Below are positions 9,309 to 44,585 of a stretch of DNA of 64,000 bases, piece by piece. Within the stretch, counting starts at the first letter, position 1; every line of letters starts with the position of its first letter. This stretch comes from Haloarcula salina (GTDB lineage Archaea; Halobacteriota; Halobacteria; Halobacteriales; Haloarculaceae). Both the position numbers and the translations under genes were made by a program. The notes under the pieces were generated by a model, which had not been told where the DNA came from, did not search any database, and saw only the letters and a program-made list of their open reading frames with translations. The stretch covers positions 310,001 to 374,000 of the forward strand of contig NZ_WRXL01000001.1 of NCBI RefSeq assembly GCF_010119195.1, in the 5' to 3' direction.

Positions 9309-10755
9309 CCACGACGAGCGGTCGCCACAGGCCGAACTCGGTCTCCTCGACGCGACGATGATCGGGATGGGCGCGATGATCGGAGCCGGGATCTTCGTCC
9401 TGACGGGGCTGGCGGCGGAGATCGCCGGCCCCGCCGCGCTCCTCGTGTTCGTCCTCAACGGCGTCGTCACCGCCTTCACCGGCCTCTCGTACGCCGAACT
9501 GGCGAGCGCGATTCCCAAGAGCGGCGGCGGGTACGCGTTCGTCCGCGAGGTGTTCGACGACTTCCAGTCGTTCCTGATGGGCTGGATGCTCTGGTTCGCG
9601 TACATGATCGCCGGCGCGCTGTACGCGCTGGGGTTCGCGCCGAACTTCCTCGAGTTGCTCCACGTCTACGGGGTCGTCGCGCCGCCGGATCAGGTCGGCG
9701 CGCTCGCGCTCCCGGCCGTCGACGCCGCCGTCCCGGCGGGACTGGCGCTCGCGTTCGTCGCCGTCGCGCTGTTCGTCGCCGTCAACGCCGTCTCGACGGC
9801 CGCGAGCGGGAGCATCGAGACGATCTTCACGGCGACGAAGGTCACGATACTCCTGGTGTTCGTCGCCTTCGGCGCGGTGTCGCCGATGTTCTCCACCGCC
9901 GAGTTCCAGCCCCTGTTCCCCGAGGAATCGGGCGCGTTCGCGATACTGCCCGCGATGGGGCTGACGTTCATCGCCTTCGAGGGGTACGACCTCATCACGA
10001 CGGTCACGGAGGAGGTGAAGAACCCGCGCGAGAACATCCCGAAGGCCATCTTCGTCAGTCTCGGGGCGACCGTGCTCGTTTACGTGGCGGTCGTCACGGT
10101 CGCCATCGGCACCCTCGGGGCCCAGGGGTTGGCCGAGGCGGGCGAGGCCGGCATCGCACGCGCAGCCACAACGTTCATGCCGACGGGGCTGCCGGTCATC
10201 AAGAACGGCGGCGCGGTCATCGTCTTCGGGGCCGTGTTCTCGACCCTGACGGCGCTGAACGCCGTGGTCATCGCCTCCTCGCGCGTCGCGTTCTCGATGG
10301 GGCGCGAGGGACAGTTGCTCCCGTCGTTCGGCCAACTCCACCACCGCTTCGGGACGCCGTTCGCCGCCATCGTCGCGAGCGCCGTAGTGATGCTCGGGTC
10401 GGTGGTCCTGCCGACGAAGAGTGCCGGCAACATGTCGAGCCTGTTCTTCCTGCTCTCCTTCGTCGTCGTCAACGGGGCCGTGATCAAACTCCGTCGGGAG
10501 CGACCGGACATGAACCGACCCTACGAACTCCCGTACTACCCGATTCCGCCGCTGCTCGGGATCCTGCTGAATCTCGTCCTGACCGTCGTGCTGGTGGGCT
10601 ATCTGGTCCGAACCGATCCGGTCGCACTGGTGCTCAGCGGCGGCTGGATCGCCCTCGGCGTGATCGCGTACTACGGGCTGGCGGCCGTTCGATCGGAACC
10701 GGGTACCGAGAGGGAACCGAGCGACAGTGCGGAGCTGCTTACCGAGGACGACTGA
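9301..10755 (+). CDS. APC-superfamily amino acid permease
   Basis: A 484-residue transporter with about 12 membrane helices. The first helix contains the conserved MIGMGAMIGAGIFVLTG that binds the substrate backbone in APC transporters. FIAFEGYDLITTVTEEVKNP and ASSRVAFSMGREGQLLPSFGQLH are further family motifs. Cationic or neutral amino acids are the likely substrates. ATG 9301 was preferred over an upstream GTG at 9226 because it lies right before the family's usual N-terminus. Two bases separate it from a TrkA-like regulatory gene, so the pair is one operon. Confidence 0.87.
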   Translation: MSSHDERSPQAELGLLDATMIGMGAMIGAGIFVLTGLAAEIAGPAALLVFVLNGVVTAFTGLSYAELASAIPKSGGGYAFVREVFDDFQSFLMGWMLWFAYMIAGALYALGFAPNFLELLHVYGVVAPPDQVGALALPAVDAAVPAGLALAFVAVALFVAVNAVSTAASGSIETIFTATKVTILLVFVAFGAVSPMFSTAEFQPLFPEESGAFAILPAMGLTFIAFEGYDLITTVTEEVKNPRENIPKAIFVSLGATVLVYVAVVTVAIGTLGAQGLAEAGEAGIARAATTFMPTGLPVIKNGGAVIVFGAVFSTLTALNAVVIASSRVAFSMGREGQLLPSFGQLHHRFGTPFAAIVASAVVMLGSVVLPTKSAGNMSSLFFLLSFVVVNGAVIKLRRERPDMNRPYELPYYPIPPLLGILLNLVLTVVLVGYLVRTDPVALVLSGGWIALGVIAYYGLAAVRSEPGTEREPSDSAELLTEDD

Positions 10756-38557: not shown

Positions 38558-39229
38558 ATGCAAGGAGGCGTCTGTGGGATCGTCGACGGGACGTTCGACG
38601 TTGTGGGGCCCTACACCGAGACGGAAACGGAGCGGGAACACGAGCTTTCGCGATCGGTCCAGGTCGACCGCGTTTTCTCGCTCCCCTCGGGGAAACCCGG
38701 CTTCGAGGGCCACGCGGCCGCCGAACGGCTCGTGACCAGGAGCGACACCGAGATACGGGACGGCGAGATCCGGGTCACCGAGTCGACGGTCAAGGAGACG
38801 GTCCGGACGGCGTTTGCCGGCGTGCCCGGTGAGGTCGTCGTCGCCGAGAGCGGCGGCGGGGAGTTCGCGTTCGACCTGATCGGTGCCGAAACCGACACGG
38901 CGATAGAGCGGGGAGCGTTCGACCTCAGCGGGTTCCTCGACGCGCACCGGAGCGGATCACCGTGGAAAGCCGGGTTCTACGACGCGGACGGACACGCACA
39001 GAAGGGGACGGTCTACGGTGACGACCTCCTGCGAGACGACGCGTTCGAGCCGGTGTTAGATACCGCGTCGCTCAATCAGCTGGGAATCGATTACGAGTAC
39101 CGAGGTCGGACGGTGAAGGTGGACCTCACCGAGTCGGGGTTCGTCACGGTCCACCGGCCGAGCGGGATGGACACCGCGGCCTTTCTCGAATTTCTGATTG
39201 CGGACGTGCTTCCCCACAGTACCGGCTGA
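38558..39229 (+). CDS. Unknown protein at the left edge of the RiPP cluster
   Basis: A 223-residue acidic protein of no recognised family. It starts MQGGVCGIVDGTFDVVGPYT, which superficially recalls the Cys-terminal start of glutamine amidotransferases, but no Ntn-hydrolase or synthetase motifs follow. The rest reads as alternating strands and helices (VFSLPSGKPGFEGHAAAERLV, FAGVPGEVVVAESGGGEFAFDLIGAETDT). It has its own AT-rich promoter. It may belong to the RiPP cluster as an unknown tailoring or immunity protein, or be an unrelated neighbour. Confidence 0.55.
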   Translation: MQGGVCGIVDGTFDVVGPYTETETEREHELSRSVQVDRVFSLPSGKPGFEGHAAAERLVTRSDTEIRDGEIRVTESTVKETVRTAFAGVPGEVVVAESGGGEFAFDLIGAETDTAIERGAFDLSGFLDAHRSGSPWKAGFYDADGHAQKGTVYGDDLLRDDAFEPVLDTASLNQLGIDYEYRGRTVKVDLTESGFVTVHRPSGMDTAAFLEFLIADVLPHSTG

Positions 39230-39282
39230 GGCGAGACGGCACCCGATCGCGCTCCGAACCCGACCAGCCGTACGGGGACAGT

Positions 39283-41085
39283 TCAGGACTCGACCCGTTC
39301 CGAGCGTTGCATCGCGTATAGCTCCGCGTAGGTCCCGTCCCGAGCCGTCAGCGACGAGTGCGTCCCGGTCTCCGAGACCCGTCCGTCCTCGACCGTGTAT
39401 ATCCGGTCGGCGTTCGCCACCGTCGAGAGGCGGTGAGCGATTGCGACCACGGTCCGGTCGCCGTCGAGCGTCTCGACCGCCCGGTGGACCCGCCGTTCGA
39501 GCGCCGTATCGAGGTCGCTCGTGGCCTCGTCGAGGACGAGCACCGGGGCGTCCGTCAGCAACGCCCTGGCGAGGGCGACGCGCTGGCGCTGCCCGCCCGA
39601 GAGCTTCACGCCGTCGTCCCCGAGCACGGTGTCGAATCCCCGCGGTAGGTCGTCGAGGAACTCCGTGACGAGGGCGGTCTCGGCGGCGTCGCGGAGGTCG
39701 CGCTCCGAGACCGACCGCCCCGCGGTGAGGTTGTACCGGAGCGTGTCGTCGAAGATGTGCGGGTCCTGCCGCACCATCGCGACCGTCTCGCGCCACGCCC
39801 GCAGGTCGTACGTCTGTATCGACTCGCCGTTCGCCAGGATCGCGCCGTCGTCCGGCCCGTAGAGGCGGGCCAGCAGCGAGACGACCGTCGACTTCCCCCC
39901 GCCGGAGGGGCCCACGACGCCGACGAACTCGCCGCCCTCGATCTCCATCGAGAGATCGTCGAGGACCCGCTCGTCGTCGTAGGCGAACGAGACGTTCTCG
40001 AACCGAATCTCGTCGATCCGCTCGGGCACCGCAGCGCCCGCAGTCTCCTCCTGGCGGTCGGCCAGTTGGTCGATGAACCGATGGGTCCGAACGAGGTGGG
40101 GAAGCTCCCCCTCGATGGCGTAGACGGTGGCGTTGAGCGAACTGAGCCGCGGCGCGAGCCGGAACATGGCGAACAGGAAGACCCCCAGCGCGGACACGGA
40201 GAGCGCCCGATAGCGGATCGCGACGTAGACGAGCCCGAACAGCGCCAGCGAGACGGCGAGCTGGTAGAAGCTCTGGATCGCGACCTCGTTGCGACGGACC
40301 GCGACGCTGGTCGTCGCGTAGCGGTCGAGCGTGGCGCGGAACTCCGACAACAGGTCCGAGCGCATCCCGAACAGCTTCACGTCGCGGACCCCTTGCGTTC
40401 CGGCCTGTGCGGTCTCCTGGAGTTGCTCGTTCGCGGTGGCGACGCGGTCCCCCACGGCGTAGCCGGGCTCGATACCGTATCTGAACAGGACGGTGAGCCC
40501 GCCCAGGGCCACGGCGGCCGCCATCGTCAGCAGGGGCGCGATGGCCAGCGCGATCGCGGCGTAGGCGACACAGAGGAGTCCCTGCTGGAAGAACTGGACG
40601 ATTCGGCCGATGACGCGGCCGGCGTACCGGGTCTGCGTGAGGACGGCGTTGAGTACGTCGTCGGAGCCCTCCTCGTCGTAGTACGCGACCGACGCGCCGA
40701 GCGCCAGTTCGTAGGCCCGGTCTTTGAGGGCCCGTTCGTAGCCCTTCGTGAGCTTCGCCGCGAGCCACTTGACCGCGAACGCGGACGCGTACCGACAGGT
40801 CATCACGCACCCGAGGCCGAGGAGCAGGAATTCGAGCGTGAGTGGCAGCCCGACGGCGGCGTAGACCGACAGGAGCCGCCCGGCGATCCCGCCCTCGGCG
40901 GTCGAGAGCGCGCCGCCGGTCTGTGCGGCCTCGATGACCGGAAACAGGAACGAGAGGCCGATGCCCTCGAGCGCCATCGCGACGAGGCTCGTGGCGACGA
41001 TGCCACTGGTCAGGAGGGGGCGATGCAGCGCCACCCGGCGGAGCGATCGGTACCGCTCGCCGCGGGGGAGTTCCAACTCGGCCAT
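39283..41085 (-). CDS. ABC exporter, fused membrane and ATPase domains (RiPP cluster)
   Basis: A 600-residue half-transporter. About six membrane helices lie in residues 20-310. The ATPase domain follows: Walker A VVGPSGGGKSTVVSLL, Q-loop MVRQDPHIF, signature VKLSGGQRQRVALARALL, Walker B VLVLDEATSDLD and switch AIAHRLS. This is the type of exporter (lasso 'D' protein) that carries modified peptides out and gives immunity. It starts 116 bases from the divergent B1 gene. ATG 41085 is preferred to an upstream TTG. Confidence 0.88.
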   Translation of the reverse strand: MAELELPRGERYRSLRRVALHRPLLTSGIVATSLVAMALEGIGLSFLFPVIEAAQTGGALSTAEGGIAGRLLSVYAAVGLPLTLEFLLLGLGCVMTCRYASAFAVKWLAAKLTKGYERALKDRAYELALGASVAYYDEEGSDDVLNAVLTQTRYAGRVIGRIVQFFQQGLLCVAYAAIALAIAPLLTMAAAVALGGLTVLFRYGIEPGYAVGDRVATANEQLQETAQAGTQGVRDVKLFGMRSDLLSEFRATLDRYATTSVAVRRNEVAIQSFYQLAVSLALFGLVYVAIRYRALSVSALGVFLFAMFRLAPRLSSLNATVYAIEGELPHLVRTHRFIDQLADRQEETAGAAVPERIDEIRFENVSFAYDDERVLDDLSMEIEGGEFVGVVGPSGGGKSTVVSLLARLYGPDDGAILANGESIQTYDLRAWRETVAMVRQDPHIFDDTLRYNLTAGRSVSERDLRDAAETALVTEFLDDLPRGFDTVLGDDGVKLSGGQRQRVALARALLTDAPVLVLDEATSDLDTALERRVHRAVETLDGDRTVVAIAHRLSTVANADRIYTVEDGRVSETGTHSSLTARDGTYAELYAMQRSERVES

Positions 41086-41163
41086 CGTGTTGATCACGGC
41101 CCCTTCGAGCAATAGTTACCGCCTCACTACGGTCCCCTGTACCCGGTTCCACGGCGGAATACG

Positions 41164-41173
41164 GGGCATAACA
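41164..41173 (+). promoter_or_regulatory. Probable TATA box of the B1-B2 genes
   Basis: GGCATAACAAT at 41166-41175 is about 28-36 bases before the ATG at 41202, in the divergent gap between the exporter and the B1 gene. Confidence 0.45.
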
Positions 41174-41201
41174 ATGCTGACCCACCGCCGTTCCCACGGG
41201 T

Positions 41202-41498
41202 ATGGTAACGATAGAGACAGGCACGACTGTCGTCGCGACGGACGACTGCGTCGCCACGGCGGTCGACGACGAAGTGATCGTTCTCAACAGCGAGACGGGT
41301 ATGTATCAGGGCCTCACCGGCGTCGGACCGGACATCTGGCGACTGGTGCAGGAACCGACCGAGTTCGACGAGATCGTCTCGGCGCTGGTCGCGGAGTACG
41401 ACGTGGACAGAGCACGCTGTGCGAGCGACGTGTCCGACTTCCTCGAGACGCTCGCGACCTCGCGACTCGTCGAGACCGATGCGAACGCTGCTCGGTGA
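41202..41498 (+). CDS. PqqD/RRE peptide-recognition protein (lasso B1-like)
   Basis: A 98-residue protein of the PqqD superfamily. The core is VVATDDCVATAVDDEVIVLNSETGMYQGLTGVGPDIWRLVQEP, a three-strand RRE sheet with the conserved G-x-Y-x-L-x-x-x-G-x-x-I-W pattern, followed by helices (FDEIVSALVAEYDVDRARCASDVSDFLETLATSRLV). In lasso peptide systems this B1 protein holds the precursor's leader and presents it to the B2 peptidase. It overlaps the B2 gene by 20 bases, which supports a physical complex. The precursor at 42003 has a leader matching the known B1 recognition motif. Confidence 0.9.
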   Translation: MVTIETGTTVVATDDCVATAVDDEVIVLNSETGMYQGLTGVGPDIWRLVQEPTEFDEIVSALVAEYDVDRARCASDVSDFLETLATSRLVETDANAAR

Positions 41499-41919
41499 GG
41501 TCCTGTCGCAGTCCAGTTCGCGCCGGCGGCTGCTCTGTGGAACCGCGATGCTCATCGTATCGAGCAAGGTGCTGCTGGCCCTCGTCGGTCTCGACCGTTC
41601 GGTCCGCTGGGTCGGGTATCTCGGGCGCGTGTCCCCGCCGTACCGCCCGGTCGAGTCGGTGGAACAGATCCCGTGGTCGATCGACACCGTCGCCGCGCGC
41701 CTCCCGGGCGAGTTCGACTGCCTCGACCGGGCGGTGGCCGGGAACGCACTCCTCGCGGCCAGTGGCTACCGGGGTCGAATTCGTCTCGGCGTCGACAAGC
41801 GAGACGACGCGTTCGAGGCCCACGCCTGGATCGAGTGGAACGACGAGGTGTTGATCGGGGACCTCGACGACCTCGATCGGTTCCGAACGCTCCCGGAGTC
41901 GGAAGTAGCCCCGTTTTAA
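41479..41919 (+). CDS. Lasso-type B2 leader peptidase (transglutaminase-like)
   Basis: A 146-residue B2 protein. The catalytic Cys is in LPGEFDCLDRAVAGNALLAASG (C81) and the His in AFEAHAWIEWNDEVL (H115), with Asp residues shortly after. The N-terminal 50 residues are a hydrophobic/basic helix region typical of B2 proteins. It should cut the leader from the precursor after B1 recognition. Start ATG 41479 overlaps the B1 gene. The precursor gene begins 83 bases downstream with its own AT-rich promoter-like region, so A may be made in excess. Confidence 0.9.
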   Translation: MRTLLGEVLSQSSSRRRLLCGTAMLIVSSKVLLALVGLDRSVRWVGYLGRVSPPYRPVESVEQIPWSIDTVAARLPGEFDCLDRAVAGNALLAASGYRGRIRLGVDKRDDAFEAHAWIEWNDEVLIGDLDDLDRFRTLPESEVAPF

Positions 41920-41947
41920 CGCCGCATCCCGCTAAGCTTTCGCCAGT

Positions 41948-41968
41948 AATTGTCGTTATAACAAATAC
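41948..41968 (+). promoter_or_regulatory. Promoter-like AT-rich box before the RiPP precursor
   Basis: AATTGTCGTTATAACAAATAC (positions 41948-41968) holds a GTTATAAC palindrome and a TATA-like core about 40-50 bases before the precursor ATG. The leader ends in GGGTACAAACCC just before the ATG, a possible 4-bp stem that could hold the start codon region. Confidence 0.45.
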
Positions 41969-42002
41969 AGGTACGATTGGATACTGGGGTGGGTACAAAC
42001 CC

Positions 42003-42095
42003 ATGAACTACGAAGAACCCTCCGTGGAGACGTACGGAACCGTTGAAGAGAAGACGAACTGGTGGCACGACGACGGCTACGGTAAGTGGGACTGA
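42003..42095 (+). CDS. RiPP precursor peptide, lasso-type leader with Trp-rich core
   Basis: A 30-residue peptide. Residues 1-19, MNYEEPSVETYGTVEEKTN, form a leader. Y3-x2-P6-x-V8-x3-G12 matches the lasso RRE motif YxxPxLxxxG, and T18 falls at the exact register of the conserved penultimate leader Thr. Cleavage after N19 leaves the 11-residue core WWHDDGYGKWD, with three Trp and acidic residues at 4, 5 and 11. A lasso ring needs Asp/Glu at 7, 8 or 9, and none is there. A less likely cut after V14 would give E1 with an Asp at position 9. It follows the B1 and B2 genes and is followed by a kinase and a nucleotidyltransferase. The identification rests on context plus motif and not on homology. 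Confidence 0.8.
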   Translation: MNYEEPSVETYGTVEEKTNWWHDDGYGKWD

Positions 42096-42453
42096 GACGG
42101 ACTGCTGTACCTGTGTACTGCGACGACCGCGTGACTGGGTGGGGTTGAGACGGAATCGAGGTACGGCAGTTCGGACGTGACGGGACACCTCCCGTTCCGG
42201 TATTTTTCACACGAGATGTCTCCGTGAGACGGCTCTGGTCGTTCGCGGCGTGACACGACGCGACTTCGAGATGGACTGTGCCACGCAGTGCCCGGCTCGG
42301 ATGCGTTCGACCGCCGGTATAGAGCCCATTCTTAATCGCCCCATGACCGAATCGGGTTCGTATGCACCAGGGGCGTAGCAGCCGATTCCGACATCGAGAG
42401 ACGGCGAGGACCGGGTGCGAGCCGACGCTCGCACGCGGGGGGCGGTGAGGACC
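42096..42453. other. Gap between precursor and kinase genes
   Basis: About 360 bases. It begins with ACGGACTGCTGT (42097-42108), shared with the sequence after the MFS gene stop at 14473. An AT-rich patch (GGTATTTTTCACAC, about 42200-42213) could be a promoter. An in-frame stretch from ATG 42271 to TAG 42376-42378 could encode 35 residues with two Cys, but it lacks the leader motif. CATTCTTAATC (42328-42338) is another TATA-like site before a possible kinase transcript. Confidence 0.4.
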
Positions 42454-43368
42454 GTGGCCGTCGCGACGACCGAGACGTACGAGGCGTTCGGCCTGACCGT
42501 CCGGTCGGAGATCGACCTCCCCGAGCTGTCGACCGCCGACCCGGGCGGTCCCACGGACCCCGACGTCACCGTCACCGTGCGCACGCTGACGCGACCACCT
42601 GCTCTCACGTCCGAGACGAGCTTCCACGCGGCGGGTCAGCGCGACTACTACCTCCAGTACGACGCGGCGACCGTCCGCGTTCGGGACGGGACCCGTATCG
42701 CCGTCGATCCGGCCCGTGGAGTCCCACACGAGGTCCTCCGACACGTGATCGTCGGTCCGGCGCTCAACCACCTGCTTCACCAGCGCGGCTACTTCGTCCT
42801 CCACGCCAGCACCGTCTCGATCGACGGAGCCGCGGTGGCGTTCGTCGGCGAGTCGGGCCAGGGCAAGACGACGACCGCGATGGCCTGTCTGACCGAGGGA
42901 CACCACGTGCTGAGCGACGACGTGGCCGCGATCACGCTCGACGGCGGCACCCCCGTGGTCAGGAGCGGCTATCCCGCGGTGAAGCTCTCTACCGAGGCCG
43001 TCGAGACGTTCGATCCGCCGGTCGAACCCCCGGTACGGACCTGCGACGGGCGGCCGCGACACTTCCACCGTCTCAGACACGACCAGCCGGCCAGTCCAGT
43101 CCCGTTAGCCGGCGTCTACCTGCTGGAAGACGGTCCGGAGATCGAAGTCGAGTCGCTCTCTGGCGGCGAACGGATCATGTCGCTGGTGGACAACACGTAC
43201 GCGATCGGGACGCTCGGGTCCGACGGACAGGCCGCCACCAACGTCGGCGTCTGCGGTGAAATCGCCGGTGCGACGTCGGTCAAGCGCCTGCGGCGACCCC
43301 GAGACCTCGACCGCCTCCCGGAGGTGATCGACCGCGTGCGGGCCGATATCGCGGGCGAGCGATGCTGA
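42454..43368 (+). CDS. HPr-kinase-like protein kinase of the RiPP cluster
   Basis: A 304-residue protein related to the C-terminal half of HPr kinase/phosphorylase and to lasso-cluster kinases (PadeK/ThcoK type). FVLHASTVSIDGAAVAFVGESGQGKTTTAM contains the P-loop (G132-T139). HHVLSDDVAAITLDG carries the Asp pair. YPAVKLSTEAVE is conserved downstream. In paeninodin-type systems the kinase phosphorylates the C-terminal Ser of the precursor; here the predicted core has no Ser, so the target may be Tyr26, a leader Thr or another group. The start is uncertain: GTG 42454 follows GGTGAGG, and a GTG at 42415 is also in frame. It overlaps the next gene by 7 bases. Confidence 0.85.
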   Translation: MAVATTETYEAFGLTVRSEIDLPELSTADPGGPTDPDVTVTVRTLTRPPALTSETSFHAAGQRDYYLQYDAATVRVRDGTRIAVDPARGVPHEVLRHVIVGPALNHLLHQRGYFVLHASTVSIDGAAVAFVGESGQGKTTTAMACLTEGHHVLSDDVAAITLDGGTPVVRSGYPAVKLSTEAVETFDPPVEPPVRTCDGRPRHFHRLRHDQPASPVPLAGVYLLEDGPEIEVESLSGGERIMSLVDNTYAIGTLGSDGQAATNVGVCGEIAGATSVKRLRRPRDLDRLPEVIDRVRADIAGERC

Positions 43369-44585
43369 GCGACGCCGAGCCGGAACTGCGGCTCGTCATC
43401 GAATGCGTGCGCGCGGCCGTCGACCCCGGTGCAGATCCCGACATCGAACCGCTCGTGTCGTCCGACCTCGACTGGGACCGCGTCCTCGATCTGGCCCGGT
43501 ACCACGGCGTCCTCCAGTTGCTCCAGCAGGGGCTGGCGTCGACGTACCGAGAGGTCAAACAGGAGCGCGGCGTGCCCCCGTCGGTCAGTTCGCGCCTCGA
43601 CGGGACGGTCCAGCGGCGGACGATGCGGAACCTCGCGGCCACGGACGAACTTCGCGGCATCCTCGACGACTTCGACGACGCCAACGTGCGCGCCCTTCCG
43701 TTCAAGGGACCGGTGTTGTCCGCGTTCGCCTACGACAGCGTGACCGTCCGCGAGTACAACGACCTCGACTTCCTCGTCCACCCCGAAGACGTGTCGACCG
43801 CCGCCGACGTCCTCGAAGAACGGGGCTACGAGTGGCGCGACGGCGCGCCGCGCCTCGACGACGCGGCGCTGCTCGGCGGATCCGCGACGAAGGCGATCGT
43901 CCACGAGTACGCGATGACTGGCTCGGACATCGACGTGGAACTTCGCTGGCGCGTCGGCGACGCGGAGCGCCCGTTCTCGCCGGACGTAACGGCGCTGTGG
44001 GACCACCGCGAGCAGGTCGACGTGGGCGGGGCCTCGGTGCCAGCACTCGCCCCGGAGGACCGCCTCCTCGTACTCGCGTTCCACGGGACGAAACACCGCT
44101 GGTACCTCCTGAAGTGGCTCTGTGACTTCGTTGCTGCGATGGACGCGACGACGGCCGACTGGGACCGGGTGCTCGCCCGTGCACGCGACCACGGCGTCGA
44201 GCGTCCGTTCCTGGTCGGTGCGGCGCTCGCCGGGTCCGTCTTCGAGTACGGGCTTCCCGAACCCGTCGCCACGCGAGTGAGCGAGGCGAGCGGCGTCACT
44301 GGCCTGGCCGATCGAGTGAGACGGTCGCTGGCGTCCGGTTCGATGTCCGCGCCGGGCCGCATCGAGTCCGCCCGGTTCTTCGCGGCCGCGAGCGAATCGC
44401 CGACGGCGCTACTCCGACTCGTCGCCCTGCACTCGGCGCTTCACCCGACCTACGCGGACTACCGGTTTCACCCTCTTCCAGGCCACCTGCATCCGCTCTA
44501 CTACGTCGTCTGGCCGCTCAGGCTACTGGCCGGGTTACTGCCGGACCGAACGGAGACCGACCCTCCGACCGAGGAACCGACCTGA
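43362..44585 (+). CDS. Nucleotidyltransferase (NTP_transf_5 type) of the RiPP cluster
   Basis: A 407-residue protein. RALPFKGPVLSAFAYDSVTVREYNDLDFLVH (residues 110-140) is the signature of the uncharacterised nucleotidyltransferase family that recurs in lasso peptide clusters: a KG motif followed by D-x-D (D134, D136). LAPEDRLLVLAFHGTKHRWYLLKWLCDF is a second conserved block. The C-terminus is hydrophobic (PLYYVVWPLRLLAGLLPDR), perhaps membrane-associated. It might transfer a nucleotide onto the phosphorylated peptide. It is translationally coupled to the kinase by a 7-base overlap. Confidence 0.85.
   Translation: MLSDAEPELRLVIECVRAAVDPGADPDIEPLVSSDLDWDRVLDLARYHGVLQLLQQGLASTYREVKQERGVPPSVSSRLDGTVQRRTMRNLAATDELRGILDDFDDANVRALPFKGPVLSAFAYDSVTVREYNDLDFLVHPEDVSTAADVLEERGYEWRDGAPRLDDAALLGGSATKAIVHEYAMTGSDIDVELRWRVGDAERPFSPDVTALWDHREQVDVGGASVPALAPEDRLLVLAFHGTKHRWYLLKWLCDFVAAMDATTADWDRVLARARDHGVERPFLVGAALAGSVFEYGLPEPVATRVSEASGVTGLADRVRRSLASGSMSAPGRIESARFFAAASESPTALLRLVALHSALHPTYADYRFHPLPGHLHPLYYVVWPLRLLAGLLPDRTETDPPTEEPT

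Follow-up and report, generated by a model that had tools for sequence, protein, structure and literature searches.

What can a set of lasso-peptide genes produce when the gene for the ring-closing enzyme is missing? This question is raised by a locus in the 64,000-nucleotide stretch of Haloarcula salina DNA analyzed here (the window), in which genes for leader binding, leader cleavage, peptide modification and export lie together with a small precursor gene, and in which no asparagine-synthetase-like gene was found in the neighborhood of the cluster. Judged from the sequence comparisons presented below, the product is likely to be a linear, leader-cleaved, kinase-modified and exported RiPP without a lasso knot.

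The cluster comprises six genes. The MsbA-type fused ABC exporter (39283-41112, minus strand, first ATG at 41085) was recognized by Pfam ABC_tran (108 bits) and by its Walker A, LSGGQ and Walker B motifs, and it is likely to export the peptide. In the window and in 10 of 10 same-genus clusters it is divergent from, and adjoins, the gene for B1, with an identity of 72-74%. B1 (41202-41498, plus strand) is a PqqD-fold leader-binding protein (RRE) that matched Pfam PqqD with 66 bits (cut-off 23.4) and the solved TbiB1 (5v1u) with an E value of 4e-17. B2 (41479-41919, plus strand), a transglutaminase-like leader peptidase of which this genome has one copy, matched NCBIfam lasso_biosyn_B2 with 81.7 bits (cut-off 33), and its catalytic Cys and His are invariant across all compared loci. 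Further along the same strand lie the 30-residue precursor (42003-42095; MNYEEPSVETYGTVEEKTNWWHDDGYGKWD), an HprK-like peptide kinase running from a GTG at 42445 or 42454 to 43368, and an NTP_transf_5 nucleotidyltransferase-like tailoring enzyme (43362-44585; Pfam PF14907, 199 bits). As a single sequence the kinase falls under the Pfam and NCBIfam cut-offs; a 27-sequence profile matched solved HprK with an E value of 2e-7, and all four residues of the catalytic His-Lys-Asp-Asp set are invariant. Profile matches and sequence features thus confirm every gene named in the initial annotation, and its proposal that B1 and B2, like the kinase and NTP_transf_5, are translationally coupled agrees with overlaps of 20 and 7 nt, respectively.

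The same set occupies the same chromosomal slot in 10 other species of the genus, so that the gene order extends to relatives beyond chance, although its presence is patchy (11 of 32 genus genomes). Wherever this was checked, in the window and in same-genus clusters, a DUF790 gene borders the set on one side and a DUF7122/RsmF pair on the other. These flanks are near neighbors in most of the 10 cluster-free same-genus genomes examined, and in one they are 33 bp apart. One genome (G010:C4; loci L116 and L160) carries a deletion scar, in which NTP_transf_5 residues 72-389 stand beside exporter residues 556-609 within the usual flanks. Because the flanks close up in most of these cluster-free genomes and the scar joins the two ends of the set, the six genes form a self-contained unit. 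The gene at 38558-39229, initially listed with the cluster, does not belong to it: in the window alone does it lie between the exporter and the flank. It encodes 223 residues of unknown family with the N-terminus MQGGVCGIVDG, and 24 of the 146 family genomes carry it, unlinked to the cluster. We considered it as a split glutaminase or cyclase half and rejected it as such, since it has no Pfam or NCBIfam match and its homologues lie away from B1 and B2.

The genome and its relatives were searched with a lasso-cyclase profile built from 22 archaeal lasso cyclases. Where a lasso cluster is present, as in G028 from the same genus, the matches reached 550-985 bits and covered nearly the full length of the profile. 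The best match in the genome of the window was a partial one of 47 bits to a generic AsnB; partial generic matches of about 190-207 bits were obtained in the ten same-genus relatives, except G020 and G036, and matches of 69-78 bits in G465 and G466. Three genomes that are 99% complete and keep the cluster (G020 and G036, from the same genus, and G123) had no match at 1e-10. There was no match in G129 and G173 either, where absence carries less weight at 87% and 78% completeness. No AsnB-like gene lies within 17 kb of the cluster in 11 same-genus cases. The PF00733 matches on contigs 7 and 8 were set aside, as they were read from their sequences as a 390-residue protein without a glutaminase domain and a LarE-like ATPase. 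The cyclase was thus tested for and is absent, and the window cluster is not a lasso cluster. The initial annotation had claimed that no macrocyclase is present, and this holds for the cluster surroundings and, on the profile search, for the genome. It had also named a conserved AsnB-like neighbor of homologous clusters as a sign to the contrary; such a gene does stand beside the sister haloarchaeal lasso clusters, but not beside those of the monophyletic clade to which the window belongs. Of the two products it had envisaged, a possibly linear peptide, cleaved from its leader and modified by the kinase, is supported, whereas one closed by a cyclase encoded elsewhere is disfavored by the profile search.

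Near-invariance across the genus (mean dN 0.005 and dS 0.14 over ten relatives) indicates that the precursor is a real gene, strongly constrained, and more so than its enzymes (dN/dS 0.10-0.20). The equivalent position in ten further species of this genus codes for MKEYETPSVETYGTVEEKTNWWDHDDGYGKW[S/D], with the core WWDHDDGYGKW[S/D] where the window has WWHDDGYGKWD; among these ten there are 7 synonymous codon differences, and the sole residue change is the last. The initial annotation had held that its reading would fall if B1 and B2 were never accompanied by this small ORF in relatives; the ORF accompanies them in 11 of 11 same-genus clusters. Upstream of it, a TATA-like element (TATAACAAATAC, 41957-41968, plus strand) is near-invariant in 11 of 11 same-genus loci amid variable intergenic DNA, and it is a putative promoter. 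The gap between precursor and kinase holds a conserved non-coding stretch (42310-42370), found in the same place in ten relatives (CATTCTTATCCACCACAGCAGTCAAGCG there), which is perhaps the promoter for the kinase and NTP_transf_5.

The precursor leader (42003-42059, plus strand; MNYEEPSVETYGTVEEKTN) carries a YxxP motif, with Y(-17) and P(-14), and a Thr(-2), a spacing that agrees with the one reported for lasso leaders (PMC10368454). By analogy, cleavage would fall before W1 and release the predicted core WWHDDGYGKWD (42060-42092; stop at 42093-42095). Counted from the leader Thr, which is replaced by Ser in one case, 9-18 residues follow in the cyclase-less clade versus 23-33 in 25 lasso-type precursors, with no overlap. 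Acidic residues occur in the window core at positions 4, 5 and 11 only, with none at ring position 7-9. We dropped the acidic residue at 7-9 as proof of a non-lasso product: the test is weak, as by the same numbering it is likewise lacking in 14 of the 25 archaeal precursors from cyclase-bearing loci. At another cyclase-less cluster (L157, 12726-14829, minus strand), five paralogous precursors with short cores were seen, for example QLEKYSEPL and QGEYYGSEPTY.

In a tree of B1, B2, kinase and NTP_transf_5, with sampling from one order, 16 cyclase-less loci group together in a single clade (100 bootstrap, 98 SH-aLRT) that covers at least three families and includes G119, G123, G173, G465 and G466. 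The clade is also marked by its sequences: B1 reads YQGLxGVGPxxW versus YYGFNEVG in cyclase-bearing loci, the D-x-D carboxylates and third acidic residue of NTP_transf_5 are invariant within it, and many kinase positions are fixed differently from the lasso clade, among them the residue before the catalytic Asp pair (S versus E). A B2 search of the contig collection returned one bacterial locus only. With a bacterial lasso locus as outgroup, on a long branch, the root falls among the cyclase-bearing loci, so that a lost cyclase is a more parsimonious explanation than a gained one, and presumably the right one. A further cyclase-less locus (L158, in G492) lies outside the main clade and may represent a second loss; its precursor (10035-10178, plus strand) has a core consisting of a run of about 20 glycines (KRGGG...GPIGYGQ), in a cluster without lasso cyclase. 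In G119 (L044, 9418-11401, minus strand), an AsnB-type gene that starts MCGIAG, with the catalytic Cys kept, stands in a broken frame beside three precursor copies; owing to its low lasso-C profile score and the broken frame it was not accepted as a cyclase.

The course that we propose for the archaeal pathway follows from analogy with the paeninodin/pseudomycoidin, Bsf and LPP systems. After binding the YxxP leader, B1 would present the 30-residue precursor to the other enzymes. The short acidic aromatic core would be modified by the HprK-like kinase and next, probably, by NTP_transf_5; B2 would remove the leader by a cut behind Thr(-2)-Asn(-1), and the product would leave the cell through the ABC exporter. 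The ancestor of the archaeal clade would have lost the cyclase gene once, the core would have shortened, and the remainder would have been kept under purifying selection. Linearity is deduced from the absent enzyme, and cyclization by another route is possible.

The residue that accepts the phosphate deserves separate consideration. In paeninodin and pseudomycoidin it is the C-terminal Ser that the kinase phosphorylates, and the phosphate is then extended with a hexose by PsmN (PMC9266682), while in the Bsf and LPP systems Ser3 is modified (PMC10368454, PMC13381572). The window core contains neither Ser nor Thr, as is the case for 7 of 14 cores of the clade, and Tyr is present in all 14; Tyr is for this reason our best single guess from the sequences. 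Nevertheless, the core ends in Ser in 9 of 10 same-genus relatives and in Asp in the window and L049, and since Ser is the classical paeninodin acceptor, it may be the real one here, with the terminal Asp of the window as an exception.

Three known systems invite comparison. The cluster shares with paeninodin/pseudomycoidin-type clusters B1, B2, a His-Lys-Asp-Asp HprK-like kinase, an NTP_transf_5-type enzyme, an exporter and the leader with YxxP and Thr(-2), but it lacks the AsnB-like C protein, its core is much shorter, and in the window, as in several relatives, there is no C-terminal Ser to serve as acceptor. Genome surveys have documented lasso clusters in archaea (PMC12144867). Predicted haloarchaeal ones, such as those on the Halopiger xanaduensis SH-6 plasmid (NC_015658) and in G028, have homologous B1, B2, kinase, NTP_transf_5 and exporter, and differ by their AsnB-like cyclase and by their precursors, which are 45-54 residues long and share a conserved K-x-G, most of them having a GS[I/V] motif as well. 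The closest known kind, the Linear Polyphosphorylated Peptides (LPPs) of Bacillota (Nat Commun 2026, PMC13381572), are cyclase-free and phosphorylated, with a product inferred to be linear; their leader is cut by a SipW-like peptidase, and their precursors have 35-200 residues. Likeness to them extends to the RRE, the HprK-like kinase, the NTP transferase, the MsbA-like exporter, the YxxP leader, one to several precursor genes and the lack of a macrocyclase. In contrast, the archaeal set retains the lasso B2 and has precursors of 27-37 residues, and the window leader YEEPSVETYGTVEEKT departs from the LPP consensus YxxPxVLxHQxIxFETxxS. Judged by match scores, its B1 is nearer to lasso B1s: TbiB1 gave 65.6 bits and 9x90 gave 41, compared with 18 for PDB 9x8z, which we take to be the LPP RRE (LppB). 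We read the archaeal set as a counterpart of the bacterial LPPs, with an origin that is probably separate. Our literature search, with subscription papers mostly outside its reach, found no report of the archaeal cyclase-less clade.

Other explanations of the locus have to be weighed against a linear product. It could encode a normal phosphorylated lasso peptide closed by a trans-acting cyclase, for which the genome offers one full-length AsnB-like gene off-cluster, of 598 residues on contig 10; in several other cyclase-less genomes, too, there are generic AsnB-like genes for which a role in trans is conceivable. We rejected the contig-10 gene, which lies among glycosyltransferase and flippase genes and has the weak, partial profile match described above. 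Moreover, the three 99% complete genomes retain the cluster with no match at 1e-10, and for a lasso the core tails, at 9-18 residues, are short. The absence of a trans cyclase appears strongly supported in complete genomes and less so in G129 and G173, making this explanation improbable. Still less credit can be given to a decaying lasso cluster that has dropped its cyclase and is on its way out, despite the patchy presence, the deletion scar in one genome and the broken AsnB-type gene in one related cluster: purifying selection acts on all the enzymes, whose active sites are intact, the precursor hardly varies, and a deep clade with paralogous precursors has the cyclase-less state in common.

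An equally slight chance attaches to a true LPP family member that moved into archaea. The functional set is the same as that described for LPPs (PMC13381572), but the LPP leader motif is missing, no SipW-like signal peptidase was found inside the bounded cluster, where B2 sits instead, B1 scores far better against TbiB1 than against 9x8z, and all the enzymes are closest to those of haloarchaeal lasso clusters. A different idea is that the kinase and NTP_transf_5 replace the cyclase, activating an Asp side-chain carboxylate or Tyr and thereby making a ring or a conjugate in a novel way. The half of the cores that have no Ser or Thr, with the kinase nevertheless intact, would fit, as would the kinase positions fixed differently between clades, including the one before the catalytic Asp pair; lineage-specific substitutions, though, arise by shared ancestry too, and we know of no precedent for HprK-like enzymes forming rings. 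We regard such a replacement as improbable too. A broader proposal is somewhat less remote and still unlikely: a separate archaeal RiPP class, in which kinase and nucleotidyltransferase, no longer bound to the lasso fold, act on Tyr or Asp of a near-invariant acidic-aromatic peptide of 11-12 residues. The result would be a phosphate-linked conjugate or a new type of ring, whose physiological role would be conserved (e.g., as a signal or metal ligand) and not that of an antibiotic.

Should the linear, kinase-modified peptide prove correct, a second domain of life would show that a lasso pathway can lose its ring enzyme and remain evolutionarily stable, and phosphorylation with nucleotidyl or glycosyl transfer, not the knot, could be the conserved part of such pathways. 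The probable product, a tiny unknotted phosphate-modified peptide, is of a kind so far known only from one bacterial group. Its near-invariance across ten species argues for a conserved role and not for an arms race. The six-gene haloarchaeal system is small and well bounded, and it lends itself to testing how HprK-like kinases and NTP_transf_5 enzymes act on peptides, a question that concerns bacterial LPPs as well.

Two further observations were made during the survey. On a short contig (L045, 2794-3484, minus strand), a B1-B2 pair of the cyclase-less type stands beside glycosyltransferase genes, and no precursor or kinase was found there. Other precursors lie beside lasso-type genes in L051 (6865-7020), L070 (13192-13338) and L074 (4912-5046), with Gly/Arg-rich sequences (KGRGRGRGRG) and HFSxVDGNSGTTGNRG.
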